This document shows, one piece after another, positions 2,733 to 24,630 of a DNA stretch of 24,630 nt; position 1 is the stretch's first letter, and the number at the start of each line of letters is the position of its first letter. This DNA comes from a virus. The notes beneath the pieces were generated by a model. The model had not been told where the DNA came from. It did no database searches and saw only the letters and a program-made list of their open reading frames with translations. The translations under genes and the position numbers were made by a program. The DNA lies in the IMG/VR virus record IMGVR_UViG_3300036945_001177, positions 1 to 24,630 of that record. One strand, 5' to 3'.

Positions 2733-3100
2733 AGGTTCTCCACCGCCTCGATTTGAAAGCCCCACTTCACCGCCAGCTCGCTATCCCAAACCACGTCCGG
2801 CGAGGACAGGCGGAAGGTGCGCACGCCGGGCGGCACGGTCAGGCCGGGGCACCACGGGTCAAGGTCGAGGGTGAAGGTGCCCACCATGCCGTTGAGGTCG
2901 TCCAGGAACGCGCCGAAGGTCTGCGCCTCGTCCTTGGTCATCCGCTGCATGATGATCGTCACGTCCCACCGGGTAGCGCCCCAATCAAACACCTGTCGCT
3001 GGAGGGTGAAGGGCGATTGCGCGACGGACTGCACCCGGCGGCGCGTGGCCTTCACGGAAGCGGGGTGGATGGAGGGAAAAGCGAGCGGGTAAGTCGGCAT
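2729..3100 (-). CDS. Putative distal tail (tail-tip adaptor) protein
   Basis: A protein of 123 residues directly downstream of the tape measure gene. It is mostly beta-strand-like, with a basic N-terminal segment (VKATRRRVQSV), FDWGATRWDVTIIMQRMTKDEAQTFGAFL and a Gly/Asp-rich hairpin before a C-terminal VKWGFQIEAVENL. Position and size fit the distal tail protein that connects the last tail-tube ring to the tip, as lambda gpM or the DUF2460-type proteins do. I do not recognise a specific family. The ATG lies 4 bases from a GTTTAAAC palindrome that fills the gap to the tape measure stop, and no purine-rich ribosome binding site is visible. Its stop overlaps the next ATG (ATGA). Confidence 0.65.
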   Translation of the reverse strand: MPTYPLAFPSIHPASVKATRRRVQSVAQSPFTLQRQVFDWGATRWDVTIIMQRMTKDEAQTFGAFLDDLNGMVGTFTLDLDPWCPGLTVPPGVRTFRLSSPDVVWDSELAVKWGFQIEAVENL

Positions 3101-3103
3101 GAT

Positions 3104-3111
3104 GTTTAAAC
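3104..3111. repeat. GTTTAAAC palindrome, copy 1
   Basis: It sits in the 15-base gap between the tape measure stop and the start of the distal tail gene, where a ribosome binding site would normally be. See the repeat-family finding. Confidence 0.6.
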
Positions 3112-3115
3112 GTGC

Positions 3116-5818
3116 TCAGGTCTTTTTCCGGCGGCGCTGGTCTTCCACGGCGGCGGTCACGCGGCGCTCGATCACCGGAATGACGGCGGCGAGTTCCTGC
3201 TTCGTCACCCCGGCCTCGAACGAGTAGTTGAACGTTAGGTTGTCGCCGCCGAAGCGCGCACCGGCCCCGCCGCCCACCAGACCGCCGTCGGCATAGCCGG
3301 GCAGGGAGCGGGAGACGCGCACCGCGTCGAGGGCGCGCACGCCGATGGCGCTCACGGCCTCCTGGGGCAGGACGTATTCGCCACGGTGGACGATGCCCGC
3401 CGGGGCGAACTTGCCGCCGGGGCCGGTGTAGCCGCCCGCCGCAAAGCCAAAGCTGGCCGACGTGCCGGAAAAGTTGCCTGCCGAGTTGATCGTGGTGCCG
3501 GAAAAGTTGCCCGCTCCCGCACCGGCCGCACCGGCTCCGGCACCAAAACCGCCCGCGACGCTCGCGCCGAGTCCGAGAAACGAAAAGATGCTCGTCGCGA
3601 TGCGCATGGCGATGAGCTGTTGGATCGCCTGCATGATCGCGCTCCCGATGGACGCGAACACCTTCTTGAATCCGTCGCCCAAGCTCTTCGCCGACTGAAG
3701 GGCGGAGACGATGCCTTGCTGCATCCCTTGGAAACCGGCGTTGGCGATGGTGAACGCGGCGTCGAGGTCTTGGCCCATCTGGCGAACCTCGGTGTTGAAC
3801 CGCTGAAGTCCGCGCTCGGGGCCGTTGGTCGCGCCCGCCACCCCACCGTTGGCCTGCCGTAGCTCGCGCTCGGCGGCGTCGATCCGGGCCGCGATGGTCT
3901 CGCGGGCGGTGGCGTTGGTCTCGATGGCGAGGCGTTCGCGGAGTTTCGCCACCGTCGCGGCGATGGCGTCGCGCTCCTCCCGCAGGTAGCGCAGGGTCAC
4001 GGCGCGGCGCTCGTTGGTCGTCAGCCCCGGCGCGTTCTCGGCCTGCTGCCGGGCAAGGGAGATGTCGTCACGCTGGCGGGCCAGCGCGGATTCCTGCGCG
4101 GTCAGCTCCGTCCGCAACGCCTCCTCGGCGGCGCGCTTGGCGTCCTCCGCCTCCTTCTTCGTGACCGCCGCCCGGCGCTTCGCTATGTCGAGCAACGCCA
4201 CGGCCAGCGTCACCTCGGCGACCTTTTGCGCCTTGGCGTCGCCCGCGATGACCGCCGCCTCGCTCTGCACCATGTAGAGATTTCGCGCGACGGACTCCTC
4301 CTCGCGCAGCATGGCCAGCTTGCCCTCGGCGGTGGCGAGGTCGTAGCGCGCATCAAAAAGTTTCTTCGCCACAGTGTCGGACTGTTTGGCGAGTTCCCCG
4401 GAAAGGTCGGTCGCGGCCTTCACCGTCGCCTCGGTCGCGGCACGTTGGGCCTCGGCGGCGGCGGCGTTGGCCGTCGCGGCGGTGTTCGCGGCGTCCGTCG
4501 CCTGCGCCTGCGCGATGATCGCGGCCCCGCTGCGCTCGGCGGACTGCGCCAGCCGCTCGTAGGCGTTGGCCATGCTCGCGAGGCGCGCGCGCTCGTCTCC
4601 GCTGGTGGATCGCTCCGCGTCGCGCCGATACTTTGCGCCCAGCATCGCGGCGGCTTGACCGGCCTTGCTCACGTCCTCCTGGGTGCGCGCGCCCATCAGC
4701 CGAGAGCGGACAGATTTCAGCATGCCGTCCTCGCCGTCCTCGGTCTGCTTCTGCGTGTTCAGCGCGGAAATCGCCTGCCCGCCGGACACGGCGATACCGA
4801 GCGCGGCGGCAGCGGCGACCGCGAACAGTCCACCGGCCACGGCCCACAACGGCGCGGTGGCGAGCGCGCCGGCGAACTTCGCGGCGATGATGCCGCCGAG
4901 GAGGAGCCCGCCACCCTGCACGGCCACGGTTGCCGCCGCGCCTATGCCGATGACACCGCCCAGCGCGCCGATGACCGTTGCCACCGTCGCCACCGAGCCG
5001 GGCAGCTCCTTCATGAAATCCTTGAACGTCTGCATCTCGCCGTTGGCCGTCGCCATGCCCGCCGAGAACTTGTCGAAGATCGGTTTGCTCAGTTCGCCCG
5101 CCATCACGCTGATGTTGTCGTTGAGCGTGGAGAGTTGGCCGTTGAACGTCTTCGACTGCGCGGCCATCGCGCCCGCGTATTGGCCAAAGTTCTTCGACAT
5201 GACGGCGAGGGCGTCACCGGTCGAGAGCGCGCGCCCCTGAAGTGCGAACAACTGCTTGCGGGCCTCGTTGGAGATGAGGCCGAGCTGGGTCAGGTTCTGG
5301 ATCGGCTCGCCGATGGTCGCACCTTGGCGCAGCGCCGCGTAGAGCCGCCCCATCCACATCGCCACCGCCTCGAACGGAGCGCCTACGGCGGCGGCGGCGT
5401 CGCCGACCATGCGTAGCCCCTCGCCGGAGGCCAACGCGTCGCCCGTGAACGCCTGGAGGAGCTTGGAAGCCTGCACCACCTGCGGAAGCTCGAAAGGCGT
5501 CTCCGCCGCGAACTTCACCAGCCCGCGCATCCGATCCTCCGCCGCCTTCGCCGAGCCGAGCAAGGTGCGGAACGCGACGCCCTGCTGTTCGAGCGTTGCG
5601 TTGAACCGCACGCCGGAGCTGATGAAGCTCTTTAGGCCGTTGACCAAGCTACCGATACCGAGACTCGCACCGAGCGCGCCCGCACCAAACGCCGCCCCCG
5701 ACTTCACTAGGTCGCCGAGCGTGTTCTTCGTCTTGCCAAGCTCCGCCCGCGTCTCGCGCAGCGCGGCGAGGTCGGATGAGACCTTGAGCAGGATGTCGGC
5801 TTTGGTGGTGACGGCCAT
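3116..5818 (-). CDS. Tail tape measure protein
   Basis: A protein of 900 residues and the longest complete gene in the window. It opens with a helical region (about residues 1-60, with [20 protein letters not shown]), then the tape-measure N-terminal domain ending near [20 protein letters not shown]. Hydrophobic Gly/Ala-rich segments follow at about 280-350 ([20 protein letters not shown] and later), likely membrane-inserting during ejection. A long Ala/Arg/Glu coiled coil covers about 430-690, and a Gly/Ala-rich C-terminus carries [10 protein letters not shown], a typical tape-measure end motif. It lies inside the tail tube and sets its length. At the usual ratio of about 1.5 angstrom per residue the tail would be near 135 nm, close to lambda. 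The gene follows the chaperone pair, the standard siphophage order. Confidence 0.95.
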
Positions 5819-8463: not shown

Positions 8464-8786
8464 GCGCGCTTCACGGTGACGACGACCGTCGGGTCGGTCG
8501 GATCGTCGGCCTCGATTTCCTTGATGGAGAGCTTGCCCGTGCCGTAGTCGAACGCCTCGCCCACCTTGGGCCAGAGGGGCAGGGCGTCGAGGGCCGCGCG
8601 GGCGATGAGGAGGCGCAGCCGCTTGGGCGGAGGCCCGAGCGTGGTATCGGTGCGCAGCGGGTCGCCGTCGCCCTGGTCGAGCACGCCGACGAGGGCCGCG
8701 CCCTTGAACGTCAGCGCGTCCTCCGTGCCCGCCTCGGCGGCGAGTTCGGCAAAGCCGTTGGCCAGTTCTTGCTCAAAAAGGTTCAT
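8460..8786 (-). CDS. Putative head-tail attachment protein (gpFII position)
   Basis: A protein of 108 residues, acidic at the N-terminus (FEQELANGFAELAAEAGTED). It continues with KGAALVGVLDQGDG, a Pro/Arg-rich turn and a final strand region (VVVTVKRA). Length, composition and position downstream of the capsid genes fit the small beta-barrel head-tail joining proteins represented by lambda gpFII (117 residues). It is the first gene after the intrinsic terminator at 8803-8840, so its expression depends on read-through or on an unseen promoter in the 96-base gap. The leader ends in CCACC directly before the ATG and has no Shine-Dalgarno. Confidence 0.6.
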   Translation of the reverse strand: MNLFEQELANGFAELAAEAGTEDALTFKGAALVGVLDQGDGDPLRTDTTLGPPPKRLRLLIARAALDALPLWPKVGEAFDYGTGKLSIKEIEADDPTDPTVVVTVKRA

Positions 8787-8802
8787 GGTGGAGGGGGTGA
8801 AA

Positions 8803-8840
8803 CAAAAAGCCCCGCCCGCCTGTAAAAGACGAGCGGGGCT
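8803..8840 (-). terminator. Intrinsic terminator after the capsid/cement genes
   Basis: On the minus strand the sequence folds into an 11-bp stem (AGCCCCGCTCG with CGGGCGGGGCT, one U-G pair) around an 11-base loop, followed by a run of T (complement of 8804-8808). The plus strand has no T-run after the stem, so the terminator works only for leftward transcription. It separates the highly expressed capsid and cement genes from the head-tail connector and tail genes, and would lower expression of the latter. Confidence 0.85.
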
Positions 8841-10761: not shown

Positions 10762-11597
10762 CAGCGCCGCATCGCGCGCAGCGCGGAGGCGGTTTTGATG
10801 GCGCGGTCGAGCGACCCCACCTCGTCAATCAGACCCACGGAAAGCGCCTCGTCTCCGACGAAGGTCTGGCCGCGCATGGTGTCGTCCGCCACGCCGGGGC
10901 GGCGCGCCTTCACCGTGCGCTTGAACATCTCGCCGTGCGCGTTGGCCACCCGCTTGATTTGCGCCTCCTGCTCGGGCGTCAGCTTGGTTCCGGGGATGCC
11001 CGCGCCCTTGAACGTCGCGCCGTCGTTGGTGATGACCTTCCGCTCGATGCCCATCTGCTCGTAGGCTTTCGACACGTCGAGGAACGAGATCACCGTGCCG
11101 ATGCTGCCCACCGTGGCGGAGCGCGTCGCGATCACCGCGTTTGCTTGGGAACCGACCTGGTAGGCCGCGCTCGCCATCACGCTATCCGTGAAGGCCACCA
11201 CCGGCTTGCCGCCCCGCTCCGCGTAGGCGCGCACACGATCTGCCAGCTCGGGCGAGCCGTTCGCGGTGCCGCCCGGCGAGCCAAATTGAAGGACGAGCGC
11301 GTTTACACGCGGGTCGGTCATCGCGCGATCCATCGCCTCGCCGATTTCCTGCGTGCAGGTCATGCCGAGATACTTCTTTTCTGCCCGCGAAGGGCGCACG
11401 CACGTCATGCCGTTGACCGGCAGCACCGCCACCCCGCCATCCATCACGGAGTAATCGGGCTTTTCCGCCTTGTCCTCCTCGTCATCGAAGAAAAACGACT
11501 GCGGCGCGAGCCCCGCCAGCGCCTCAACGAGGGCGGCGTGGGCGGTCGCGGTCACAAGCCAAGGCTCAAAGGCGCGGTGAAGGGAGAGGGTTTTCAT
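10761..11597 (-). CDS. S49 family capsid maturation protease (gpC-like)
   Basis: A protein of 278 residues. I chose the ATG at 11597 because it overlaps the portal stop as ATGA and starts at the conserved-looking MKTLSLHRAFEPWLV. Core motifs are VAVLPVNGMT, VNALVLQFGSPGG (oxyanion-type glycine turn), PVVAFTDSVMASAAYQVGSQ with the likely nucleophile Ser before AAY, and a downstream FKGAGIPGTKLT carrying candidate Lys partners of the Ser/Lys dyad. These are the marks of SppA/S49 proteases. Placed between portal and scaffold, it is the counterpart of lambda gpC, which trims head proteins after procapsid assembly. Unlike lambda, the scaffold is a separate gene with its own leader, not an internal start. 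Confidence 0.9.
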   Translation of the reverse strand: MKTLSLHRAFEPWLVTATAHAALVEALAGLAPQSFFFDDEEDKAEKPDYSVMDGGVAVLPVNGMTCVRPSRAEKKYLGMTCTQEIGEAMDRAMTDPRVNALVLQFGSPGGTANGSPELADRVRAYAERGGKPVVAFTDSVMASAAYQVGSQANAVIATRSATVGSIGTVISFLDVSKAYEQMGIERKVITNDGATFKGAGIPGTKLTPEQEAQIKRVANAHGEMFKRTVKARRPGVADDTMRGQTFVGDEALSVGLIDEVGSLDRAIKTASALRAMRR

Positions 11598-13075
11598 TTT
11601 TGGGCGGGTGTTGGAGGGTTGTTCGTGCCGGGTTGCCCCTGCGCCATGTTGGCGTTGGGCGTAGAGAGCTGGAGCATCTGCATGGCCTGCATCACCGGTA
11701 TCCCGTGCTTTTTGGCTATGCGTCCGGCGCGTTCGAGGAGGTCGTCCACCTCGCGCTCCTTTTGGGAGCGTCCCTCCTGCCAGTCCATGCCGCGCCGTCC
11801 GAAGTGCTCGGCCTCCGTCATCAGGCCCATCTTCACGTCCTCGCGGTCGTTGTTGGCGTCGCGCCCGGCGTCCACCGTCAGCTCGGCGGGCCGCTGCCAG
11901 CGCACGCGCCACGCGTCTTTCACCGGGGCGAGGTCGCCGCGCTGGATCGCCGAGGAGATCACCCAGAACCACAGCCGGTTCAAAAGCATCGTCTCCATGA
12001 GGTCTTGCCGCTCGCGGAAACGCCGCTGCGCCTTCTCCAAAACGAAGCGTTGCGCGGTGCCGCCCAGCCGCTCCGGGTTCCAGATAAATTCATAGGGCAC
12101 GCCAAGGCCGGTCGCCATGTCGCGGATCAGGTGGTCGAGAAAGCCCGTGAACGTCGGCGAGGGCCGGTTGCTCGTCCACGGCGTCATGTCCTCGTCGGTC
12201 GCGATGACCTTCGTTTCCCCGGCGCGAGACTCCGCGATGACGACTTTCTTGCCGTCCACCGTCACCTCTTCGTCCGTCCAGTCGGCGGGGTCGGCCTCGC
12301 CGCTTTTAGTCTTCAGAAGCGCCCACGTCTGCGCGTCCTTCTTCTGCCCCACCTTCTCGTAGTCGAGGATGTCCTTCCGGTCGTGGAGGGTGTTGATAGC
12401 GTGGTAAAGCGCGGTCACTCCGCGCACCATGTCGGCGCGCTCTCCGTCGAAAAGGAGGATGAAATCCGACGCCGGAACCTCGCGCGTCTGCTTCGCCCCG
12501 AACGCGTCAACCGTCACGATGCGATAGGCCAGCGGGCGACCGGCCACGTTTACACGCACTCCATCAAACCACTCCGAGCCGTCGCCCTGCGTGCCGCTCA
12601 CGTCCGCGCCGTCGCCGATCCGGTGCGACTCGATCACCTGGAGCTGGGGAAAGCCGCTCTCCGTCTTCACGAACATGATCCCCACGTCGCCGTCGCGGTC
12701 GATGGCGATGGAGAGGATGCGCTGGAGCCGGTTGAAATGGTAGCGCCCGGTCACGTCCGCCACCTTGCACCACTCCCGCCAGTAGGCTTCCGCCGCGTCG
12801 TTCCACGCCTGATCCTCGGTCTGCGCCTGCGGGATAAGCCCCGAGCCGACCGAGTAGCGCGCGATGTCGTTGATCGAGCCGCGCGCAAAACCGTCGTTGC
12901 CGTAGAGGCTGCGGGCCTTCGCCAGCATCTTCACCCGCGACCAGCGCGGCACGTCGCGGCGCGAGTCCTGCGGGACGCTGCTGATGGTGGTGCGGTGGCG
13001 GGAGTCGCCCGATGCCTCGTGCAGCGTCGAGACGCTAAACCCGAGCATGCGGCCGAGACGTTGTGATAACTTCAT
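11594..13075 (-). CDS. Portal protein, lambda gpB family
   Basis: A protein of 493 residues, close to the usual lambda-family portal length. It has the family's N-terminal features (VPRWSRVKMLAKARSLYGND, then GFARGSINDIARYSVGSGLI), the central VIESHRIGDG and VTALYHAINTLHDRKDILDY, then LGVPYEFIWNPERLGGTAQR and FVLEKAQRRFRERQ. A disordered Gln/Pro/Asn-rich tail ends it. It would form the dodecameric ring at one capsid vertex through which the terminase pumps DNA. The gene lies between gpW and the S49 protease exactly as in lambda. A GTTTAAAC palindrome precedes the start by 16 bases; the leader contains AACGACCAA and no clear Shine-Dalgarno. Confidence 0.95.
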   Translation of the reverse strand: MKLSQRLGRMLGFSVSTLHEASGDSRHRTTISSVPQDSRRDVPRWSRVKMLAKARSLYGNDGFARGSINDIARYSVGSGLIPQAQTEDQAWNDAAEAYWREWCKVADVTGRYHFNRLQRILSIAIDRDGDVGIMFVKTESGFPQLQVIESHRIGDGADVSGTQGDGSEWFDGVRVNVAGRPLAYRIVTVDAFGAKQTREVPASDFILLFDGERADMVRGVTALYHAINTLHDRKDILDYEKVGQKKDAQTWALLKTKSGEADPADWTDEEVTVDGKKVVIAESRAGETKVIATDEDMTPWTSNRPSPTFTGFLDHLIRDMATGLGVPYEFIWNPERLGGTAQRFVLEKAQRRFRERQDLMETMLLNRLWFWVISSAIQRGDLAPVKDAWRVRWQRPAELTVDAGRDANNDREDVKMGLMTEAEHFGRRGMDWQEGRSQKEREVDDLLERAGRIAKKHGIPVMQAMQMLQLSTPNANMAQGQPGTNNPPTPAQK

Positions 13076-13091
13076 GGGGTGGGCCTTGGTC

Positions 13092-13099
13092 GTTTAAAC
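13092..13099. repeat. GTTTAAAC palindrome, copy 4
   Basis: It overlaps the stop codon of the gpW gene (GTT-TAA) and lies 16 bases upstream of the portal start. Confidence 0.6.
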
Positions 13100-13378
13100 G
13101 CCGCCGCTTGGGACGGCGGAGAAGTCGGGCAGGATGCTGCGCACGCGCCGCCCGTAGGTTGTCGGGTTGGCCCGTTTCAGGGCCGCGTTGATCTCCAAAA
13201 GGTCGGTCGTCAGCTCGCCCAGCGTCATGTTCTGCTTGGCGAACGCCTTCCCTCCGCCGCTCACCGAGGCGAAGCGTTTGCCTTGGCGCGCGGCGGCGAG
13301 CTGCGCGAGCGCGTCGGTGCGCATCTGGAGCAAGGTCGCCTCCTGAAGCCCGTAGTAAATTCCGGTGATGCTGGCCAT
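13094..13378 (-). CDS. Head-to-tail joining protein, gpW-like
   Basis: A protein of 94 residues. The ATG at 13378 was preferred because the conserved part starts there (MASITGIYYGLQEATLLQMR) and the sequence upstream belongs to a repeat. It contains ALAQLAAARQGKRFASVSGG, which parallels the lambda gpW segment with a Lys-Arg turn, and a second helix (LTTDLLEINAALKRANPTTY) ending in YGRRVRSILPDF. In lambda gpW fills the connector below the portal and is required before gpFII can bind. The gene lies between large terminase and portal, the same place as lambda W. Copy 3 of the hairpin repeat runs straight into its start codon (GTAGAATG), so the ribosome must load on or next to that hairpin. Confidence 0.85.
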   Translation of the reverse strand: MASITGIYYGLQEATLLQMRTDALAQLAAARQGKRFASVSGGGKAFAKQNMTLGELTTDLLEINAALKRANPTTYGRRVRSILPDFSAVPSGGV

Positions 13379-13403
13379 TCTACCCAAGGCCGCGCCTTCC
13401 ACT
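13378..13403 (-). repeat. Intercistronic hairpin repeat, copy 3
   Basis: This copy has a perfect short stem (AAGGC-GCG-GCCTT on the minus strand). Its last base is the A of the gpW start codon, and 12 bases separate its beginning from the large terminase stop. Confidence 0.75.
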
Positions 13404-13415
13404 GGCCCCACCAAC

Positions 13416-15347
13416 CTACGCCTTCGCTTCCACCGGGGCCGCTGCCGCCTCCTCCGCGTCCGCGTCCTCCTCCATCCGCCCCACCTTCTTGGACATGATG
13501 GCCGAGGCCATAATCATACACTCGCAGTCGAAATAGTGATTATCCTTTCGCTTCCGTTTCCAGACGTAGCGCACCCGCCCGCGAGCGTCCGTCTCCTCCT
13601 CGCGCGCCTCCGCCGTGATCTGCTGCATGTATTCGCGCGGCGCGTCCGTCGGGATTGTCCAATCCTGCTCCACCCCCGACATGGCGAGGCCGAGGATGTC
13701 CTTCACGCCGGGGTTGCTCCACAGGTAGAGCTTTATCGGCCTCACCTTGCCCTGCATGGACGTTCCGATGGCCGGGTCTGCGTGCGAGAGCGACCACACG
13801 CGGCGGACGGTCTTCCTCACCTTTTCGCCCTTCTCCTCGACCTCGACCGCCGCCATGAAGTCCGCCCGGTCGTCGCCACGGAACGCCTTCCATTTGAACT
13901 TCAGGCACGCCTTGTAAACCCGCCCCGAGTCGTGGGCCGAGTCGATTACGGTGTTGATCGTCGGCACGCCGAGCGCCATGCGCAGCGCCTCCGCCTCCTC
14001 CTCCGCTCCGACCATGCCAAACGCCACCAGCCGGGAGTTCTGCCCGTCGGCGGCAAAGGCCCGGCACACGTAGCGGTAATGGTAGTGCGGTTTTTCCTGC
14101 ACGTCGAAGGCGAGGAAAAGCGCGTCGCCCTCCTCGGTCGGCACCGTCAGCGAGCCGTCGCCGTTGCGCGTCGCCAGCACGTAATCCCGCTTTCGCTCCT
14201 CCAGGACGGAGAAGTCGTCAAACTCGCGCAGCCGATCCATCCACGGCTCGCCCAGCGTCTCCGTGACGAACTTCTTCAAGGGCTCGATGGCCTCCGGCCC
14301 GCCGAGCCTCAGCGTGCGGTCGGCGATGATCTTCTCCTCGACCACATCCCGCCAGCGAACGAGCGGCGGCAACATCGCGTTCCAATGCATCGACACCTTC
14401 GTCCTCGGCGCGGCCGGGTTGCCCGCGATCCAGTCGCCGACCGTGGCGATATGCTGCCGCGCGCGTGGTTCGTCCGGCATCAGGTGCCCGCACCCCGCGC
14501 ACTCGTAGCGCAGCGCCTCCGCCAAGGTGTCGAACGACCACCGCTTGCCGTCAAACGCCCCCGGCACGTCGCGCCAATCGCACGCCTCCTCCTTCGCGCC
14601 TACCTTCCGGCACGCCCGCAGTTGCTTCAGGACGAGCGGCTGGAGGTGTCCGCACGCCGGGCAGTTGAAATTCCACTCCAGTTGATTGCCCTCCTTGAAC
14701 GCGACGTGCATCGCGTCGTTCTCCTCCTTCGGCGTGGAGATCATCACCCGGCGCGAGTTCCAGAACGCGCGCACGCGCTTGGCCACGCCGTCCAGCGCCC
14801 CCGGCGGATACTCCGTCACCTCGTCCAGGAACAGCCACCGGATCGGCTTGGACTTCAGCTTGGACGGCGAGTTGGAGCCGTTGACGTAGATCGTCATCGT
14901 GCTGAACCGGATGGAGCCCAGCTTGACCTTGTGGCGCGCCTTGTCGCCGCCCATCTGGCTCAGGAGCTTTTTCGCCACCGGCCCGCACATCTCGATCATC
15001 GGCATCAGGCGATCCGTCACGAAGTCGTTGGCCTCGTCCTTCGCCGCCTGCACCCACATGGCCGGGCCGGGGTCGTTCTCCACCGCCCACAAAAGCAGGA
15101 TGATGATCGTGAGCGTCTTCGCCGACTGCGCCGAGCACATCACCGCGATGTCCTTCACCGTGTTGTCGGGGAAGGTCTCCATCAACTTCTTCACGAACGG
15201 CGAGTTCTCCAGGTGCCATTTCCCCGGATGCGGCGAGTCCTTGCCGAGCCGGACGTGTTTGCCCGCCCACACATGCGGCGGCGTGCGGTCGATGGGCCGC
15301 ATGCAGTCCGCGAAGACCTCGAACAACGCCCTACGCGTCGGGCTCAT
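13416..15347 (-). CDS. Terminase large subunit, lambda gpA family
   Basis: A protein of 643 residues. The ATG at 15347 (MSPTRRALFE) has GAGGAGG 8 bases upstream. The ATPase domain carries a deviant Walker A (CSAQSAKT, residues 71-78) and Walker B (WLFLDE, 171-176). Two Cys pairs (CPACGH, then CAGCGH) form a zinc-binding insertion typical of the gpA/GpA-like group. In the C-terminal nuclease domain VIDSAHDSGRVYKAC contains a conserved Asp expected at the metal site. It packages DNA into the prohead using ATP and cuts the concatemer; gpA relatives usually work at cos sites. The start overlaps the end of the small subunit gene by 17 bases. Confidence 0.96.
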   Translation of the reverse strand: MSPTRRALFEVFADCMRPIDRTPPHVWAGKHVRLGKDSPHPGKWHLENSPFVKKLMETFPDNTVKDIAVMCSAQSAKTLTIIILLLWAVENDPGPAMWVQAAKDEANDFVTDRLMPMIEMCGPVAKKLLSQMGGDKARHKVKLGSIRFSTMTIYVNGSNSPSKLKSKPIRWLFLDEVTEYPPGALDGVAKRVRAFWNSRRVMISTPKEENDAMHVAFKEGNQLEWNFNCPACGHLQPLVLKQLRACRKVGAKEEACDWRDVPGAFDGKRWSFDTLAEALRYECAGCGHLMPDEPRARQHIATVGDWIAGNPAAPRTKVSMHWNAMLPPLVRWRDVVEEKIIADRTLRLGGPEAIEPLKKFVTETLGEPWMDRLREFDDFSVLEERKRDYVLATRNGDGSLTVPTEEGDALFLAFDVQEKPHYHYRYVCRAFAADGQNSRLVAFGMVGAEEEAEALRMALGVPTINTVIDSAHDSGRVYKACLKFKWKAFRGDDRADFMAAVEVEEKGEKVRKTVRRVWSLSHADPAIGTSMQGKVRPIKLYLWSNPGVKDILGLAMSGVEQDWTIPTDAPREYMQQITAEAREEETDARGRVRYVWKRKRKDNHYFDCECMIMASAIMSKKVGRMEEDADAEEAAAAPVEAKA

Positions 15348-16065
15348 CGTCCGCCTCCTCGCTCGCCGCCACACCGCGCCGCTTCCGCTGCTTCTGCACC
15401 TTCCCCAGCCAGTTCAACAAGCCTTCCAGCACGCGATCCATCGCCGCGTTGTAGGTCTTCACGCCCTCGTCCACGTCCTTGGCCACCATGATGAGCTTCA
15501 CCGTGCCCGACGCCTCGCCGTAGAGATTGCCGCGCAGCTCCGTCGCCACGTCCGCCGCCGCCGCGATGATCTCGCTCCGGTCCAACAACTCGCCCCGGCG
15601 CTCCGCGTTGTCCAGCTCCAGGCGCTCGTTCACGAGGAGGAGCCGCTTTGCGTTTAAACGCGGCAACTCGTCTTCGAGTTCGTCGCCACCGACGCCGCCC
15701 GCGCGCCCGGTCTCGCGCATCCACCGCTTCCATTCGAGCACGGGCCAGCGCCCATCCGGTCGGGCCTTGGGCGGGCCGTTCCGGCGCAGCTTGATGTAGC
15801 GGTCGAGCTGCATGCGCGAGATCCCCAGCGTCTTCGCCAGATCGACCTTCGTCTCCACGAACGCCCGCGCCTCCTCCAGCGGCTCCTCGTTCGCCGCCGC
15901 CTGGATCAACGCCAGCTCCGCCTTCGTCAGGGTTTTCTTCGCCTTCAGCTTCTCCACCACGTTGCCCACGTTCGCGCGCAGGAGCTTGTCCGCCTGCTCG
16001 CGCGTGAGCATGGGCGGGGTCTTGGCGGCGGGGGCCGGGGTGGGCGGTGGGGGTTTACGAGCCAT
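15331..16065 (-). CDS. Terminase small subunit (Nu1-like)
   Basis: A protein of 244 residues. After a Pro/Ala-rich N-terminus it has a helical stretch (TREQADKLLRANVGNVVEKL). A helix-turn-helix follows (DLAKTLGISRMQLDRYIKLR) with the wing-like NGPPKARPDGRWPVLEWKRW, the pattern of Nu1/Nu2-type DNA-binding domains. The centre contains LNAKRLLLVNERLELDNAER, the usual small terminase coiled coil, and a basic tail (KVQKQRKRRG). It should recognise the packaging site and recruit the large subunit. The start overlaps the upstream ParB-like gene by 11 bases. Confidence 0.85.
   Translation of the reverse strand: MARKPPPPTPAPAAKTPPMLTREQADKLLRANVGNVVEKLKAKKTLTKAELALIQAAANEEPLEEARAFVETKVDLAKTLGISRMQLDRYIKLRRNGPPKARPDGRWPVLEWKRWMRETGRAGGVGGDELEDELPRLNAKRLLLVNERLELDNAERRGELLDRSEIIAAAADVATELRGNLYGEASGTVKLIMVAKDVDEGVKTYNAAMDRVLEGLLNWLGKVQKQRKRRGVAASEEADDEPDA
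15652..15659. repeat. GTTTAAAC palindrome, copy 5
   Basis: It is inside the small terminase coding region, spanning the Arg-Leu-Asn codons CGT TTA AAC. It uses the rare TTA leucine codon in a GC-rich gene. Confidence 0.6.
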
Positions 16066-19035: not shown

Positions 19036-19052
19036 TGCGCATTAAATGCGCA
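19036..19052. promoter_or_regulatory. Operator-like palindrome TGCGCATTAAATGCGCA
   Basis: Two perfect 8-base arms (TGCGCATT / AATGCGCA) are centred on one A, 29 bases upstream of the AAA+ start codon. Size and symmetry suit a dimeric repressor. An ATG at 19046 lies inside the right arm, which argues against that codon being the gene start. Confidence 0.55.
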
Positions 19053-19081
19053 CACAACTTGAACCACAACGACCAAGCCGC

Positions 19082-20137
19082 ATGTCCACCACCTCAAAAA
19101 AACCACACCTTAACCACCTCGCGCCGTCCGCCGGGGCGTCGCTCTCTAAGGCGCAGGCATTTGCCTTCATTGACGCCTATTTTCAGGAAGGACAATGCGA
19201 CATCTCGTTTGACGTGTCCGCCGACGACGTTCGCCGCCACGTTGCGGACGACCTCGCCAAGGCGTCCGCCGCCGTTGACGTGTCGGGCCGGGCGCTTCGC
19301 CTCGCCGACGACGCCGCGCGCCTCGCTCAAAAGGCCGTAACCTTGGCGGAGGCGAAAACCGCCGCCGCCTCCGTTTCCATCGTGGAAATCCGCCGCGAAG
19401 GAAAGACCGTCGCCAAGATCGAGGGCGCGCACCGCGAGTTTTCCACGCTGTTGGACGTTCTCGCCTGCGGGTTGCACGCCTTCCTCGCCGGTCCGGCGGG
19501 TTCCGGCAAAACGACCGCCGCGCGCGAATGCGCCAAGGCGCTTGGCCTTCCGTTTTTCTTTACCGGCGCGGTTGCAAACGAGTTTAAGCTGACCGGCTTC
19601 CGCGACGCGCAAGGCAACTATGCGAAAACGCCTTTTCGCCTGTGGTGCGAGCAAGGCGGGATTTTCCTATGGGATGAAATTGACGCGTCAGACGCGCGGG
19701 CGCTCCTAAGTTTTAACGCCGCGCTGGCAAATGGCGTCATGGAGTTTCCAGACGGCGAAACCGTCACCTTGCATCCGACGTGCCGCGCCGTCGCCGCCGC
19801 GAATACCTACGGCGGCGGAGCTGACCGGGTTTATGTTGGCCGCAACCAACTAGACGCCGCTTCTCTGGACCGCTTCGCCTTCATTGCTTGGGATTATGAC
19901 GAAAACTTAGAAGCGCGGATCGCCGGGAATGCGGACTGGACGCGCCACGTCCAAGCCGTCCGCCGCGCCGTGGAGTCTCTGAAAATTCGCGCCGTCGTCT
20001 CTCCTCGCGCGTCCATTTTTGGGGCCAAACTTTTGGCGCAGGGCATGAACCGCGCGAAGGTTGAAACGCTCACCATTTGGAAAGGCATGGACGCCGCCAC
20101 CGTCGCCAAGATAGCCGCCACCGTCCGCCACGTTTAA
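19082..20137 (+). CDS. MoxR/CbbQ-like AAA+ ATPase
   Basis: A protein of 351 residues from the ATG at 19082. An in-frame ATG at 19046 falls inside a palindrome and was not used. Residues 1-115 are a helical Ala/Asp-rich region. The ATPase core has Walker A GPAGSGKT (137-144), TGAVANEFKLTGFRDAQGNY as pore or substrate loop, Walker B GIFLWDEID (193-201), sensor 1 AAANTY (238-243) and SLDRFAFI with the likely arginine finger (R264). This order fits the dynein-related/MoxR group, whose members remodel protein complexes with a von Willebrand-type partner. The next gene, 5 bases downstream, is probably that partner. It is the first gene of the rightward operon, behind an operator-like palindrome, with leader AACGACCAA. 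Confidence 0.88.
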   Translation: MSTTSKKPHLNHLAPSAGASLSKAQAFAFIDAYFQEGQCDISFDVSADDVRRHVADDLAKASAAVDVSGRALRLADDAARLAQKAVTLAEAKTAAASVSIVEIRREGKTVAKIEGAHREFSTLLDVLACGLHAFLAGPAGSGKTTAARECAKALGLPFFFTGAVANEFKLTGFRDAQGNYAKTPFRLWCEQGGIFLWDEIDASDARALLSFNAALANGVMEFPDGETVTLHPTCRAVAAANTYGGGADRVYVGRNQLDAASLDRFAFIAWDYDENLEARIAGNADWTRHVQAVRRAVESLKIRAVVSPRASIFGAKLLAQGMNRAKVETLTIWKGMDAATVAKIAATVRHV

Positions 20138-20139
20138 AC
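20132..20139. repeat. GTTTAAAC palindrome, copy 7
   Basis: It overlaps the stop codon of the AAA+ gene (His-Val-stop, GTT-TAA) and ends 3 bases before the next ATG. Confidence 0.6.
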
Positions 20140-20142
20140 GCC

Positions 20143-20943
20143 ATGTCACTTTTCCAATTCGACACCTTAGAGGAATTGATCGCGCGCGCCGAGACTACGC
20201 CGGGCGCGTCGGTTGAATGGCCTTCACACAAGACCGGGCCGGAACGCCTGAAATTTGCCGGAACCAAGACCTTTGCGGATGCCGTCCGCGTCGCTCGCGA
20301 AGGTTGGCCGGAAGGCCGCGCAGCCGTGGAGGCCGCGCGCGCTCACTTTGAATACGTCACCGGGTCGCGCGTCCGCCGCGCCGTAACCGTGGAGGCGTTC
20401 GCCGGGTTCGCGCCTGACGTTCCGGCATTCCTCGCGGGCGCGCCTGATTGCATGCTCGCAAGGGAGGACGTGGAGGCGGAGGCGTCGGGCAAGATCGTCC
20501 GCCTCGTCGTCCAAGGGTCAACGTCCGCCGCCATACCGGCCGCGCAGATCGTCGCGCGGGGCGCTTTGATCGTCGCTCTTGTCGATTGCTTGGAAGCGGC
20601 GGGGCGTTCCGTGGAAGTGTCCGTATCCTTCGCCGTCTCGCACGACGGAGACCGTTCGGAAACCGTTTTTTGCGCCAAGCGCGCGGGCGAGCCTGTAGAA
20701 ATTGACCGCCTTGCCTTCGTTCTCGCGCATCCGTCCATGCAGCGCCGCCTTGCCTTCGCCTGTTGGGAATCGGATGCGCCCTATATCGTCAAAGCGGGCC
20801 TGTCCTACGGCTACGTTTCCGACGCAGCCGACCGGGGCGACCTCTACATTCCCGGCTCAGACAGCCGCATCATCACCGACGGCGACGCCGTAGCTTGGTT
20901 CCGCCGCCAGCTCGCCGCCCTAGGCATCACTTTTGACGCGTGA
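20143..20943 (+). CDS. Partner of the MoxR-like ATPase (DUF7192-like)
   Basis: A protein of 266 residues. The N-terminal third (FDTLEELIARAETTPGASVE, then FAGTKTFADAVRVAREGWPE) is a conserved phage module next to MoxR-like ATPases. The C-terminal part has alternating strands and helices (KIVRLVVQGSTSAAIPAAQI, then ALIVALVDCLEAAGRSVEVS) with the outline of a von Willebrand A fold. Where a metal site would read DxSxS this one has QGSTS, so the first Asp is missing and metal binding would be altered or lost. It follows the ATPase by 5 bases with the GTTTAAAC palindrome in the junction. Related pairs (RavA/ViaA, NorQ/NorD) act as chaperones; the target here is unknown. The vWA reading is inference. 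Confidence 0.65.
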   Translation: MSLFQFDTLEELIARAETTPGASVEWPSHKTGPERLKFAGTKTFADAVRVAREGWPEGRAAVEAARAHFEYVTGSRVRRAVTVEAFAGFAPDVPAFLAGAPDCMLAREDVEAEASGKIVRLVVQGSTSAAIPAAQIVARGALIVALVDCLEAAGRSVEVSVSFAVSHDGDRSETVFCAKRAGEPVEIDRLAFVLAHPSMQRRLAFACWESDAPYIVKAGLSYGYVSDAADRGDLYIPGSDSRIITDGDAVAWFRRQLAALGITFDA

Positions 20944-20990
20944 GGCATTGCCTCGCCGTCACCAACCGAAAAACGACCAAAAAAACCGCC

Positions 20991-21356
20991 ATGCCTGCAA
21001 AAACCGCCACGAAAACCGACACCGAAACCGAGCGCCTGCGCTCCCTCATCCGCGAACTCCTCGCCGAGGATAACGACATCGAGCTAACCATCCCTGACGA
21101 GGAAATCGCGCGAATCGTCGCCAAGGAAACCGCGCCTCTGCTCGCGCGCATCGCCGCGCTGGAGGCGTCCGCCGCCGCCGCCAAGGCCGCGCCGGTCAAA
21201 CCGACCGCCGCCACCGCCACCACCGCCGCGCGCGTCACCATCGCGCCAAAGGCCGAGCGTCTGGACGTGCTCCGCGCCTCCGCCGCCAAGATTAAAGCCA
21301 AGGCGGAGGACGCCGATGCGCGCGCCGAGCGCCGCGCGGAACGGAGGAACGCATAA
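20991..21356 (+). CDS. Ala/Lys-rich coiled-coil protein, unknown function
   Basis: A protein of 121 residues from the ATG at 20991, preferred over an upstream start because AACGACCAA and an A-rich leader precede it directly. It starts with a Lys/Thr-rich arm (MPAKTATKTDTETERLRSLI), has an acidic helix (RELLAEDNDIELTIPDEEIA), a heptad segment (LLARIAALEASAAAAKAAPV) and ends in a charged helix (KIKAKAEDADARAERRAERR). No enzymatic motif is visible. Its stop TAA shares its last A with the ATG of the next small gene (TAATG), so the two are translationally coupled. Confidence 0.65.
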   Translation: MPAKTATKTDTETERLRSLIRELLAEDNDIELTIPDEEIARIVAKETAPLLARIAALEASAAAAKAAPVKPTAATATTAARVTIAPKAERLDVLRASAAKIKAKAEDADARAERRAERRNA

Positions 21357-21445
21357 TGACCGCCGCCGCCTTCATTTTCGCCGCGCTCTGTATCGCCGCC
21401 ATGATCGCCGCCGCCTTCGCGCGCCGGGGGGAGGGTTGCGAATGA
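21356..21445 (+). CDS. 29-residue single-pass membrane peptide
   Basis: A short ORF, ATG at 21356 to TGA at 21445, encoding MTAAAFIFAALCIAAMIAAA and then FARRGEGCE. The first 22 residues form one hydrophobic helix followed by a positive Arg-Arg, a typical inside-positive single-span peptide. GGAGG lies 8 bases before the ATG, one of the best ribosome binding sites in the window. The ORF overlaps both neighbours (TAATG at the start, ATGA at the end), which makes chance unlikely. Small hydrophobic phage proteins can act as holin-like, superinfection exclusion or anti-host factors; nothing decides here. Confidence 0.6.
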   Translation: MTAAAFIFAALCIAAMIAAAFARRGEGCE

Positions 21446-22077
21446 TCGCCACCGCCGACACCTCCGCGCTTATCGGACCGGCGGGCGACCTCGCCGCCGT
21501 CCTCGCCGCCAAGGCCACGCGCGCCAAGCGCGCCGCCTCCGCGCCGGTCAAACTCCTCCTCTACGGGGTGCCGGGGGTGGGCAAGTCACACCTCGCCGCC
21601 GCCCTCGCTCGCGACCTTTCCGGCCATCACCTCGCCGTTGAACACGTCAACGGAAAGGACGTAACGATTGAACTCGTCCGGGAGTGGTGCCAGGAACTCG
21701 CCTACTCGGGTTCCCTCTTCGCCGACTGGACCGTCAAGCTGGTGGACGAGCTGGACCAATGCAGCCGGGACGCGCAAACGCTCCTCCTCACCTACCTTGA
21801 CCGCCTGCCCGCCTGCCGCGCCTTCATCGCGACGAGCAACCTCCAGCTCGACCTCCTCCAGGAGCGTTTCCATACCCGCCTCCAGCAATTCCGGGTAGAG
21901 CCGCCGTCAACCGACGACCTCGCCGCGCACCTCCGCGCGCTGCATCCGCGCCTGCCGCAAGGCATCGCCGCCCAACTCGCCGTTGGTTCCGGCGGCAACG
22001 TCCGCGCCGCCATGCTGGACGCGGAAAGCTACCTTGACGCGCAGGCCGCGCGCTCCGCGAAGGGAGGCCGCAAATGA
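21442..22077 (+). CDS. AAA+ ATPase, clamp-loader/DnaC-like
   Basis: A protein of 211 residues. The ATG at 21442 overlaps the stop of the 29-residue peptide (ATGA) and has GGGAGGG upstream. The ATPase core shows Walker A YGVPGVGKSH (41-50), Walker B WTVKLVDELDQ (96-106), sensor 1 FIATSN (128-133) and ERFHTR (141-146) with the arginine finger, then a small helical lid with PSTDDLAAHLRAL. The arrangement resembles delta-prime/RFC-type clamp-loader subunits and small helicase loaders. No polymerase, clamp or helicase is found in this window, so partners must lie elsewhere in the phage or in the host. Role: probably replication or DNA transactions. Confidence 0.78.
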   Translation: MIATADTSALIGPAGDLAAVLAAKATRAKRAASAPVKLLLYGVPGVGKSHLAAALARDLSGHHLAVEHVNGKDVTIELVREWCQELAYSGSLFADWTVKLVDELDQCSRDAQTLLLTYLDRLPACRAFIATSNLQLDLLQERFHTRLQQFRVEPPSTDDLAAHLRALHPRLPQGIAAQLAVGSGGNVRAAMLDAESYLDAQAARSAKGGRK

Positions 22078-22364
22078 GCGAGCCGCAACACACGCCGGGG
22101 CCGTGGAAAGATAACGGATACATGCAGGTTGTTTCTCCCTTAATGGCTACCGTCGCGACGACCGGCTGCACCGACTCCACGCCCATAAAAGAACAGTTGG
22201 CCAACGCTCGCCTGATCGCCGCCGCGCCTGACCTCCTGGACGCGCTCCGCCGCCTTCACCGCCTATCCGGCCAACTCATCGACGAGCCCTCGGCGCGCAT
22301 CGCCAAGGCTCTTGCCTCCTCCGCCATCTACAAAGCCACCGCCACCAACACACCGACCAAATGA
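22074..22364 (+). CDS. Small phage protein with HTPGPW start, unknown function
   Basis: A protein of 96 residues whose start overlaps the upstream stop (ATGA). It opens with SEPQHTPGPWKDNGYMQVVS and contains EQLANARLIAAAPDLLDALR. This TPGPW...NARLIAAAPDLL signature is very common in small phage proteins of unknown function, usually in early operons. No catalytic motif is visible. The end overlaps the next ATG by 4 bases. Confidence 0.75.
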   Translation: MSEPQHTPGPWKDNGYMQVVSPLMATVATTGCTDSTPIKEQLANARLIAAAPDLLDALRRLHRLSGQLIDEPSARIAKALASSAIYKATATNTPTK

Positions 22365-22822
22365 AAGCCAACGCCTTCCTCGAAATCATCGCCCTCATGC
22401 GTGCCGCCAAGTGCGACACCATCAAAATCCTCAACGAGCCATTCATGCCCTTGTGCGTGGAGTTCATCGGCAACTACGGGCCATCCGGCACGGGCAACGA
22501 ATGCGTTTCGTTCTGCCACTACGGCGAGCAAAACGGCGACGCCATGCGAGATCCTGAAGTCATCTTTGAGATCGTGCCCAAAGACGGCGAAAACTACCTC
22601 TTCGCCTACAACTACCGCAACGACTACGCCGGATTCGAGTCCGACGTTTTCGCAAACGACACCCTCGACCGCGCTCTCGCCAACGAGATCAACGCCTTCG
22701 CCCTCCTGTGGGCCGAAAACCTCACCGAACAGGGCTTCGTCACCGCCACGCGCGACCAGCTCGCCGCGCCTGCCATCGCCACCGAAACCGCCACGGCCTC
22801 CGCCGCCTCCTCCAATGGTTAA
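22361..22822 (+). CDS. DUF6908-like phage protein
   Basis: A protein of 153 residues. The body includes LCVEFIGNYGPSGTGNECVS, then FCHYGEQNGDAMRDPEVIFE and YNYRNDYAGFESDVF, with the Asn-Gly-Asp and Asp-Pro-Glu turns seen in the DUF6908 family of phage and plasmid proteins. The last 25 residues are a low-complexity Ala/Thr/Ser tail. The start is preceded by ACCGACCAA instead of a Shine-Dalgarno. The start of the next gene lies 8 bases inside its 3' end. Function is unknown in the family. Confidence 0.65.
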   Translation: MKANAFLEIIALMRAAKCDTIKILNEPFMPLCVEFIGNYGPSGTGNECVSFCHYGEQNGDAMRDPEVIFEIVPKDGENYLFAYNYRNDYAGFESDVFANDTLDRALANEINAFALLWAENLTEQGFVTATRDQLAAPAIATETATASAASSNG

Positions 22823-23525
22823 ACTCACCGTCACACCTCGCAAACGCCGCGCCTCCTCTGATCCTACGGGCGAGCCACCGCCGCCACCGCCGCGCGGCAT
22901 TGTGCCGCCGTCCGCGTCCGCCTCGCTCCTCAACCGCGAAAGCTACCTGATCGCCGCCATCGACCGCATCCGCCCGCTTTTCCAAGCCGCCGGGCTGGAC
23001 GTGCCGCCGGTTCGCGTCTCGGTCGGTTGGCCGGGAGGCCGGGGCGGCAAAAACAAGATCGGCTCCTGCTGGCCCCGCGCCGCCTCCAAGGACGGGACGT
23101 TTCAGGTCTTCGTCTCGCCGGTCGTGGACGACACGCACCAAGCCCTTGGGGTGCTCGTGCATGAACTCTGCCACGCCTGCACCGATTGCAGCGGCCACGG
23201 GGCCGACTTCTCCAAGCTCGCGCGGGCCGTCGGCCTGGAGGGCAAGCTGACCGCCACCTACCCAAGCCAGACGCTACTCGACCGTTTAAACGGCTTCGTG
23301 ATCGAGCCGATGGGCACCTACCCGCACTCGGCGATTGTGCCGGAGGAGAGCGGCGAGAAAAAGCAGGGCACGCGCATGGTAAAATGCGTGTGCGAGGAAT
23401 CCGGCTACACCTGCCGGACGACGCGCTCCTGGCTCGACCAATACGGCGCTCCGATCTCGCCCAAGACCAAACGCCCCATGACCGTCATCGAGCCGGAGCC
23501 GACCGGCGGAGAGGAGTCCGCATGA
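22815..23525 (+). CDS. SprT-like zinc metalloprotease
   Basis: A protein of 236 residues. A disordered Pro-rich N-terminus (about 1-35) precedes the catalytic domain, with zinc motif HELCH at 116-120 (H116, H120, catalytic E117) and a third His at 128 in DCSGHGADF, the HExxH...H order of SprT/Spartan proteins. C191, C193 and C200 (CVCEESGYTC) form a C-terminal zinc-ribbon-like element, another SprT feature, although one ligand of a four-Cys knuckle is unclear. SprT-type enzymes digest proteins bound or crosslinked to DNA; phage copies may clear host proteins from DNA. The start at 22815 overlaps the previous gene; the stop overlaps the next ATG (ATGA). Confidence 0.85.
   Translation: MVKLTVTPRKRRASSDPTGEPPPPPPRGIVPPSASASLLNRESYLIAAIDRIRPLFQAAGLDVPPVRVSVGWPGGRGGKNKIGSCWPRAASKDGTFQVFVSPVVDDTHQALGVLVHELCHACTDCSGHGADFSKLARAVGLEGKLTATYPSQTLLDRLNGFVIEPMGTYPHSAIVPEESGEKKQGTRMVKCVCEESGYTCRTTRSWLDQYGAPISPKTKRPMTVIEPEPTGGEESA
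23284..23291. repeat. GTTTAAAC palindrome, copy 8
   Basis: It is inside the SprT-like gene, spanning CGT TTA AAC (Arg-Leu-Asn), the same codon register as copy 5 in the small terminase. Confidence 0.6.
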
Positions 23526-23773
23526 GCCACCGCTACACAGTCATAACCGATCCGAGCGGATGCCGCATAGTCGAAGGCGAATCCATACCGATGGGCGACG
23601 CCGGGGCGCTGCTCACCGCATGGGCGGAGCGCGGCGATGAGTCCGACCCTGTGGTCTGCGACATGCGCCTGCCGAAGATCCTGACTGCGCGCTCGGCATC
23701 CAAGGTTGTCCTTGTTGTTGGCCGCAAATCCGAACTCGACGCCCTCGCCGGGCGGATAGGGGGTGTCGAATGA
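23522..23773 (+). CDS. Small phage protein (83 aa), unknown function
   Basis: A protein of 83 residues, coupled by ATGA overlaps to the SprT-like gene before it and to the next gene after it. It has a beta start (RYTVITDPSGCRIVEGESIP), a helix GDAGALLTAWAERG and a second alpha/beta half (KVVLVVGRKSELDALAGRIG). No family is recognised. The overlap at both ends and phage-like codon use support a real gene. Confidence 0.6.
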   Translation: MSHRYTVITDPSGCRIVEGESIPMGDAGALLTAWAERGDESDPVVCDMRLPKILTARSASKVVLVVGRKSELDALAGRIGGVE

Positions 23774-24156
23774 GTGCCATTCCAGACCTAACCGGAAAGC
23801 CTGTGACGCTCGTCTGCACCATCGTTGACGCGGCGGCATGGGGTGCCGAAAACCCCTTCCGCTGGCCGGACTTCCACGGCCTGCACCTCTACCGCATCGC
23901 CGCCTTCGATGCGCTCGACCGCCTGGACGAGTGCGACGCACGCAGGGAGCATGACGAGGACACCGGAACCAAGCAAACCGAGTTGGCTCTTGCTGCGTGC
24001 CGCTCGATCCTCTTCGCCGCCAAAAACGCTGTTCGCCACCGGGGCGAATATAGTCTGACCGACCTCCGCGCCGCCGAAGCCCTAGCCGCTCAGGCGCTCG
24101 GCAACTCTAACGTCGCAGTGAGGGAGCCGGAGGACAGCCCTCGGCACTCCCTGTGA
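23770..24156 (+). CDS. Unknown protein whose 3' end lies inside an attC-like site
   Basis: A protein of 128 residues. The body (residues 1 to about 110) has a beta start (KPVTLVCTIVDAAAWGAENP), aromatic residues (FRWPDFHGLHLYRIAAFDAL) and helices rich in Asp, Arg and Ala (AALAACRSILF-type, LRAAEALAAQALG). The start overlaps the upstream stop (ATGA), so it belongs to the phage operon. From codon ~112 on (NSNVAVREPEDSPRHSL) the frame runs into the attC-like site beginning at 24105, so this tail probably comes from the inserted site and the original 3' end of the phage gene was lost. No family is recognised. Confidence 0.6.
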   Translation: MSAIPDLTGKPVTLVCTIVDAAAWGAENPFRWPDFHGLHLYRIAAFDALDRLDECDARREHDEDTGTKQTELALAACRSILFAAKNAVRHRGEYSLTDLRAAEALAAQALGNSNVAVREPEDSPRHSL

Positions 24157-24191
24157 CGCGCATACGGCTTCCCTCCAGTGCATTGTTAGCC
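24105..24191 (-). mobile_element. attC-like integron recombination site 1
   Basis: The plus strand reads CTCTAAC (24105-24111), spacer, GAGGGA (24120-24125), GCCG (24126-24129), variable loop, CGGC (24165-24168), unpaired T, TCCCTC (24170-24175), unpaired C, spacer, GTTAGCC (24185-24191). The arms pair as 5 of 7 + 6 + 4 bp with 8-base unpaired spacers and two extrahelical bases 6 bp apart, the attC layout. The extra bases lie on the 3' plus-strand arm, so the cassette sense strand is minus: GGCTAACAATGC there matches the usual attC left end. The left R box (GTTAGAG on minus) matches its partner in only 5 of 7 positions, as expected if its outer bases come from the phage DNA at an insertion point. 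Confidence 0.72.
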
Positions 24192-24202
24192 GCTTTTTTC
24201 CT

Positions 24203-24586
24203 ATGGATACCGAAACAACCAAAATCGAAGTCACCGAAAAAGACATCGGGGACGTAGTAACCGCGCTTCACCGGAGTTTTTCCGATGAGCTATACGCAAC
24301 GCCGCCCGACGGTCTGGACCGCTACTGGTTCTTTCGTTGGGACGCCACGAAGTCCGCCGAGTGGAATACCTACCAATTTCACGATCTCGTGAAACTCTAC
24401 GGGGCGCAGTGCCGCCGATGGGAGGAGCACCACCACGGGATTTGCTGCGTCGTCGAGCGGGTGCGCGACAAATACCTTATGCCCAAGATACGTGAGTTTC
24501 TGTCTGCTCTGGCTAACGCACAAGTTCAGAGACGCCCAGCCTCTGAGCCCAGCACAACCTGTGACGATCATGGGCGTTCTCTGTAA
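24203..24586 (+). CDS. Cassette-borne unknown protein between two attC-like sites
   Basis: A protein of 127 residues beginning 11 bases after attC-like site 1 and ending inside site 2. It has an acidic start (MDTETTKIEVTEKDIGDVVT), then ALHRSFSDELYATPPDGLDR, an aromatic-rich centre (YWFFRWDATKSAEWNTYQFH) and helices RRWEEHHHGICCVVERVRDK and LMPKIREFLSAL. The last 25 or so residues (ANAQVQRRPASEPSTTCDDH onward) are attC-encoded and probably not functional. GC content is visibly lower than in the phage genes and codons such as ATA, GTA and TTT are used, suggesting separate origin. No family is recognised. The gene runs opposite to the orientation implied by the sites' asymmetry. No Shine-Dalgarno is present. 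Confidence 0.6.
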   Translation: MDTETTKIEVTEKDIGDVVTALHRSFSDELYATPPDGLDRYWFFRWDATKSAEWNTYQFHDLVKLYGAQCRRWEEHHHGICCVVERVRDKYLMPKIREFLSALANAQVQRRPASEPSTTCDDHGRSL

Positions 24587-24599
24587 CGCCTGGTTAGCC
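24511..24599 (-). mobile_element. attC-like integron recombination site 2
   Basis: The plus strand reads GGCTAAC (24511-24517), spacer GCACAAGTT, CAGAGA (24527-24532), CGCCCA (24533-24538), a 32-base loop, TGGGCG (24571-24576), unpaired T, TCTCTG (24578-24583), unpaired T, spacer AACGCCTG, GTTAGCC (24593-24599). All 7 + 6 + 6 arm bases pair perfectly. Spacer lengths (8 and 9) and the two extrahelical bases separated by 6 bp equal those of well-known attC sites such as that of aadB. As in site 1 the extra bases lie on the 3' plus-strand arm, so the site reads on the minus strand, with recombination expected at G/TTAGCC (complement of 24511-24517). Confidence 0.8.
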
Positions 24600-24624
24600 T
24601 CCGATTTTTAACCCACCGAAAAAC

Positions 24625-24630
24625 ATGAAT
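24625..24630 (+). CDS. Possible next gene start at the window edge
   Basis: An ATG 25 bases after attC-like site 2, preceded by CCACCGAAAAAC, could open the next cassette gene. Only two codons are visible, so this is a pointer, not an annotation of function. Confidence 0.25.

Follow-up and report, generated by a model that had tools for sequence, protein, structure and literature searches.

The DNA analysed here is the whole linear IMG/VR record IMGVR_UViG_3300036945_001177, 24,630 bases in length (the window). It comes from a tailed phage: the terminase and portal genes lie on the minus strand, the early operon lies on the plus strand, and PHROGs matches place the terminase, the portal and AAA proteins on one contig with a short array of attC sites at its right end. 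The features that concern us are the following:

11594-13075, minus strand: portal gene (PHROGs)
13416-15374, minus strand: terminase large subunit gene (PHROGs)
11594-15374, minus strand: portal and terminase region, on the same contig as the array
19046-24156, plus strand: early operon 5' of the array, with AAA ATPases, DUF7192, DUF6908 and SprT-like genes (Pfam, PHROGs)
23770-24156, plus strand: final operon gene before the array, 128 aa, its 3' end formed by attC1
24105-24191, minus strand: attC1 (scanner; covariance model 22.1 bits, E 5.5e-4; DNA folding z-score on the plus strand -2.7)
24111-24516, plus strand: predicted mobile unit, attC1 with the following gene, 406 bp between left R boxes (from polarity, and by analogy with a 338-bp unit of phage contig L100)
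24203-24586, plus strand: cassette gene, 127 aa, its C-terminal residues encoded by attC2
24511-24599, minus strand: attC2 (scanner; covariance model 37.5 bits, E 1.9e-8; DNA folding z-score on the plus strand -3.5)
24517-24630, plus strand: remainder of attC2 and start of the next unit, with an ATG at 24625 and the record end at 24630 (sequence)

On the plus strand attC1 reads CTCTAAC, an 8-nt spacer, GAGGGA, GCCG ... CGGC-T-TCCCTC-C-AGTGCATT, GTTAGCC, and attC2 reads GGCTAAC, a 9-nt spacer, CAGAGA, CGCCCA ... TGGGCG-T-TCTCTG-T-AACGCCTG, GTTAGCC. The initial annotation had proposed two attC-type sites at 24105-24599, and we found both structures as described: the scanner and the covariance model show R''/R' boxes with the GTT core (TAAC...GTTA), unpaired spacers, an L stem and a variable terminal structure, and one arm bears two extrahelical bases with six nucleotides between them, as T-N6-C and T-N6-T on the plus strand, the yardstick for attC sites being T-N6-G (PMC3053210). 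Our structural scanner, which looks for TAAC...GTTA, spacers, a stem of 5-8 bp, one extrahelical base and an inner stem, returned exactly two sites in the 24,630 bases, attC1 and attC2, with scores of 10 and 12. When the whole window was shuffled 400 times with dinucleotide composition kept, the scanner gave four matches scoring at least 8 (about 0.01 per window) and one scoring at least 10. The covariance model, trained only on 11 attCs from bacterial intI-linked arrays, scored both sites above background, the check that the annotation had suggested, and found no third match in the 24.6-kb record and none on its plus strand. The two methods differ on published phage sites, since the strict scanner recovered one of the three sites of phage TJE1 and none convincing in phages P12002L or PH101, while the model found three TJE1 sites, the published number (PMC9892861). 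In a cmsearch run restricted to the last 1.6 kb, with the filters switched off, the full-length matches were missing and the best match scored 8.5 bits; large loop insertions may be the cause, and our site calls rest on the default run and on the independent scanner. A search of Rfam gave a chance match only, and a pattern drawn from the attC loops of the window led to two contigs that lack attC structure and were judged chance matches. Judged by sequence, both sites are genuine integron attC sites. They lie 323 bp apart in a record that ends at the array and holds no PF00589 match, the composition of a CALIN.

Both sites have minus-strand polarity, since their extrahelical bases, two per site, are found on the 3' arm of the plus strand. 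The earlier description was right that these bases share an arm and right about their spacing, but the order it gave, TAAC, eight bases, an extra base, six bases and an extra base, reads on the minus strand. The polarity call was benchmarked on bacterial sites that flank integron integrases on the array side, and there it agrees with the direction of intI at 48 of 49. The cassette gene starts 12 bases past the attC1 R box, ends inside attC2 and lies on the plus strand with the operon, and therefore runs against the polarity of the attCs, whereas in a canonical cassette the gene is followed by its attC in the same direction. This opposition between the attCs and both the gene and the phage operon had been missed. 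Judged by polarity, attC1 is the last attC of the array, and its cleavage-side R box (minus strand GTTAGAG, 24105-24111) adjoins the phage gene.

In the operon leading into the array, the AAA, DUF7192, SprT gene order is conserved in phages L015 and L016, which diverge from the window phage past the SprT gene. The last operon gene, at 23770-24156, overlaps the stop of the gene before it and has its own stop inside attC1; it has a weak PHROG match (E 0.002), and no relative was found in viral contigs. At its start, at 23786-23811, an R-box-like ACCTAAC precedes CCTGTGACGCTC, and a 12-mer similar to this one occurs in the loops of both attCs; the element is a relic or chance. The record ends 31 bases past attC2.

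The segment enclosed by the two sites is of cassette size and, as had been observed, of lower GC content (54.9% vs 66.2% for the window). We found 26 relatives of the cassette protein in viral contigs and two in bacterial genome contigs, most of them in contigs with no detectable attC near the gene. The nearest (57% identity) belongs to the attC array of L002, a terminase-bearing phage contig of canonical polarity; besides the window, two relatives stand inside attC arrays, those of L002 and L025, and L025/L099 carries four sites of inverted polarity, the fourth with a degenerate R box. The proposal that the segment is a cassette unit thus gains support from sites that answer to the attC definition, from the phage relatives of its gene and from the attC-flanked position of the nearest one in L002, and the gene is an accessory gene of phages with and without attC. 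AlphaFold gave a confident helical model of the protein (mean pLDDT 89.7, pTM 0.70), for which a fold search of viral and PDB structures found no significant match and no known fold, and tblastn against annotated phage and plasmid collections returned nothing. In L018 and L019, weak attC model matches of 22-23 bits at 3527-3586 and 8772-8831 flank, at a distance, both sides of another relative of the gene.

The boundaries of such units can be read in a related lineage. L098/L100, found by a pattern scan with an L025 attC, differs from L025/L099 in its cassettes, while the L100 backbone is 97.4% identical to that of L025/L099 over 1.4 kb. L100 carries six attCs between the portal/minor-head gene and the next conserved gene of the structural module, and in this array a 338-bp unit occurs twice, 95.9% identical, running exactly from one left R box to the next. 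The attC before the gene belongs to the repeated unit, and the attCs after the two copies are of different types; therefore the copied unit is an attC with the gene that follows it, as polarity predicts. A lone R box (CTAACAGGATGTAGACCCCAC) ends the array in both L025/L099 and L098/L100, and may be an attI-like entry point. A distant blastn search with the L100 array gave only short matches to methyltransferase and hypothetical genes; L098 carries a DNA methyltransferase as cargo at 2709-3452.

The inverted layout extends beyond this lineage. A generic attC arm scan of viral contigs yielded 61 contigs, most of them with structural attCs, and gene direction was scored between adjacent attCs of the same polarity by ORF length and codon-position GC. 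Among the cassettes of these other IMG/VR contigs 27 were inverted, 3 canonical and 9 unclear, and among bacterial intI-linked cassettes 3 were inverted, 15 canonical and 2 unclear; the comparison of 27/3 with 3/15 gives a Fisher p of 4.6e-7, in which cassettes of the same contig are not independent and the bacterial controls were drawn from a single class. Counted per contig over the rows of the survey, about 15 are inverted, one is canonical (L126) and two are mixed. An independent homology test pointed the same way: ORFs that run against attC polarity matched 33 PHROG families, mostly DNA methyltransferases with an RNA ligase, an ATPase and an RNase H, and those that run with it matched none, giving two marginal Pfam models only. 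The arrays are flanked by phage-like genes (terminase, helicases, DNA polymerase, ssDNA annealing proteins). The gene 5' of an inverted array is co-directional in 10 of 11 cases and the genes 3' are mixed, and therefore arrays tend towards the downstream ends of phage operons. A stop codon supplied by the R box is frequent among inverted genes (22/38 vs 12/36). DNA methyltransferases are also the commonest recognisable inverted cargo (for example in L122, L134 and L147), which fits an anti-restriction role. Two near-identical attC types, of about 51 and 57 bp, recur across many viral contigs from different samples, the recurring groups being L113/L165, L154, L158, L161, L164 and L137, and L143/L149, L147, L163 and L193; this recurrence is as would be expected of a shared phage cassette pool.

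Which integrase could serve these arrays? A search with PF00589 found no tyrosine recombinase in L002, L025 or the window record, which ends at the array, and intI is present in one of 39 array-bearing viral records, a frequency that counts against the interpretation we propose below. The one case is G393/L193 (IMGVR_UViG_3300048837_002364), whose array and intI occupy 39.4-43.3 kb of the record, with intI at 42399-43340 on the plus strand. Its IntI scores 474 bits with TIGR02249, above the cut-off, has IntI4 (2a3v) as the nearest PDB entry, is 57-69% identical to bacterial IntIs and falls among them in a tree. The record also carries terminase, DnaB-like helicase, replication initiator, RusA, Sak4, SSB and exonuclease genes, and its plus-strand early genes end in minus-polarity attCs (six by the model at E < 0.3, three of them strong) with small plus-strand genes, then the plus-strand intI at the contig end. 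The intI-attC geometry is the usual divergent one, and only the genes are turned round. As far as sequence can tell, this record is a candidate complete phage integron.

We propose that the right end of the window is the start of an integron-type cassette array at the 3' end of the phage early operon, in which the attCs point against the operon and the unit, an attC with the gene that follows it, is exchanged by IntI and read from the phage promoter, and we consider this interpretation likely. An integron integrase, encoded either in the host or in a part of the phage genome past the contig end, would recognise the folded plus strand (the attC 'bottom' strand), cut at the left R boxes and exchange these units. 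Expression of the cassette genes would depend on the upstream phage promoter, whose transcripts would read through into the array, and not on an integron Pc. The inversion could have arisen from an intI and an insertion site placed downstream in the operon, where the usual intI-attC geometry would force attC polarity against transcription, and genes that face the phage promoter would then be retained by selection. The order of entry would be opposite to that of bacterial integrons, with new cassettes joining the array at the end farther from the promoter. Against this interpretation stand one R arm of mismatched length and a modest score in attC1, and the existence of phage arrays with canonical polarity (L002, L126 and TJE1).

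The canonical arrays also bear on a different explanation, in which a phage carries ordinary bacterial cassettes of the kind reported by Qi et al. 2023, each made up of a gene and the attC behind it, with the inversion incidental. We began with this reading and gave it up in the light of three results: the polarity control, the homology test and the repeated unit in L100. It agrees with a gene that starts 12 bases past the attC1 R box and ends inside attC2, and the arrays of L002 and TJE1 are laid out in that manner. However, minus polarity is called by both the scanner and the model, the gene that precedes the array has no cassette start before it, and the repeated unit and the homology test reveal the inverted layout in other phages. 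We therefore consider ordinary cassettes an unlikely explanation here.

An assembly chimera, in which a phage contig was wrongly joined to an unrelated integron array, would account for the array lying at the contig end and for the lower GC of the cassette. It is very unlikely, as the family of the cassette gene is mainly a phage one, equivalent arrays are embedded in the phage contigs L002 and L100, where phage genes flank them on either side, and the upstream reading frame continues into attC1. T runs stand 3' of both sites, so the hairpins could also be taken for transcription terminators or other attC-like palindromes, and a role of attC as a weak terminator has been suggested in work cited in PMC9892861. 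A terminator, though, has no need of GTTAGCC/GGCTAAC outer arms, spacers of 8-9 nt and paired extrahelical bases, would not be expected to match an attC model at E 1.9e-8, and would not explain R boxes as the bounds of a duplicated unit in L100; we regard this explanation as scarcely credible.

The proposed array has several known counterparts. CALINs are known in the virulent Tetrasphaera phage TJE1, Pseudoalteromonas phage PH101 and Polaribacter phage P12002L, and five of six sites tested in the same study recombined with IntI1 (Qi et al. 2023, PMC9892861). Like the window, these phage genomes carry attCs and small cassette genes (frequently methyltransferases) but no intI; unlike the window, TJE1 has attCs that are canonical relative to its genes, and the inverted layout is not described in PMC9892861. 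Complete integrons occur in temperate phages, namely Vibrio anguillarum phages, P1 L-II and Shewanella phage M16-3 (PMC9892861). These combine intI with attC cassettes in a phage, as G393/L193 does, but PMC9892861 describes them as pieces of host chromosomal integrons, as class 1 integrons or as an inactive prophage, and not as operon-end arrays with genes against attC polarity. Virus Rctr41k (KX853513) is a phage record in which an IntI-type gene (4680-5678) is followed by four attC-like sites and methyltransferase-like genes, with canonical polarity, unlike the window, and an attC type that resembles that of L002. Within KX853513.1 4680-9431 (L200), the gene product annotated as 'integrase-like protein' is related to IntI and shares 47% identity with the IntI of L193; this virus is not named in Qi et al. 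2023. Bacterial sedentary chromosomal integrons have the same attC structure, one gene per cassette and divergent intI-attC geometry, but there genes and attCs share one polarity and the most recent cassette lies beside the promoter, whereas the genes of the window run against polarity and are led by the phage operon. Cassettes in phages are not new (PMC9892861), and since phage cassettes, CALINs and captured integrons have been published, neither is membership in this group. In searches of open-access journal articles, we found no report of systematic inversion or of an intI-bearing phage with such a layout.

A broader proposal, on which we are evenly divided, is that phages run their own integron system. 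Arrays would stand at operon 3' ends, an intI, if there is one, would come last and point the same way, and phages would exchange among themselves a separate pool of 'back-to-front' cassettes, in which the attC lies 5' of its gene and the R box often supplies the stop codon. Such a pool would be functionally isolated from bacterial integrons, because a cassette transferred in either direction would lie antisense to its new promoter. Phage integron cassettes have so far been a small set of cases, and attC detectors used without heed to polarity would miss the distinction between inverted and canonical arrays. If the inverted layout is general, phages would have reversed the integron so as to place exchangeable genes (anti-restriction methyltransferases, an RNA ligase, small accessory proteins) under phage promoters. 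It would mean site-specific swapping of accessory genes in phages, would explain part of phage mosaicism and would predict a cassette pool confined to phages. It also makes testable the question of which integrase moves the cassettes, when, and on which strand during phage DNA replication.
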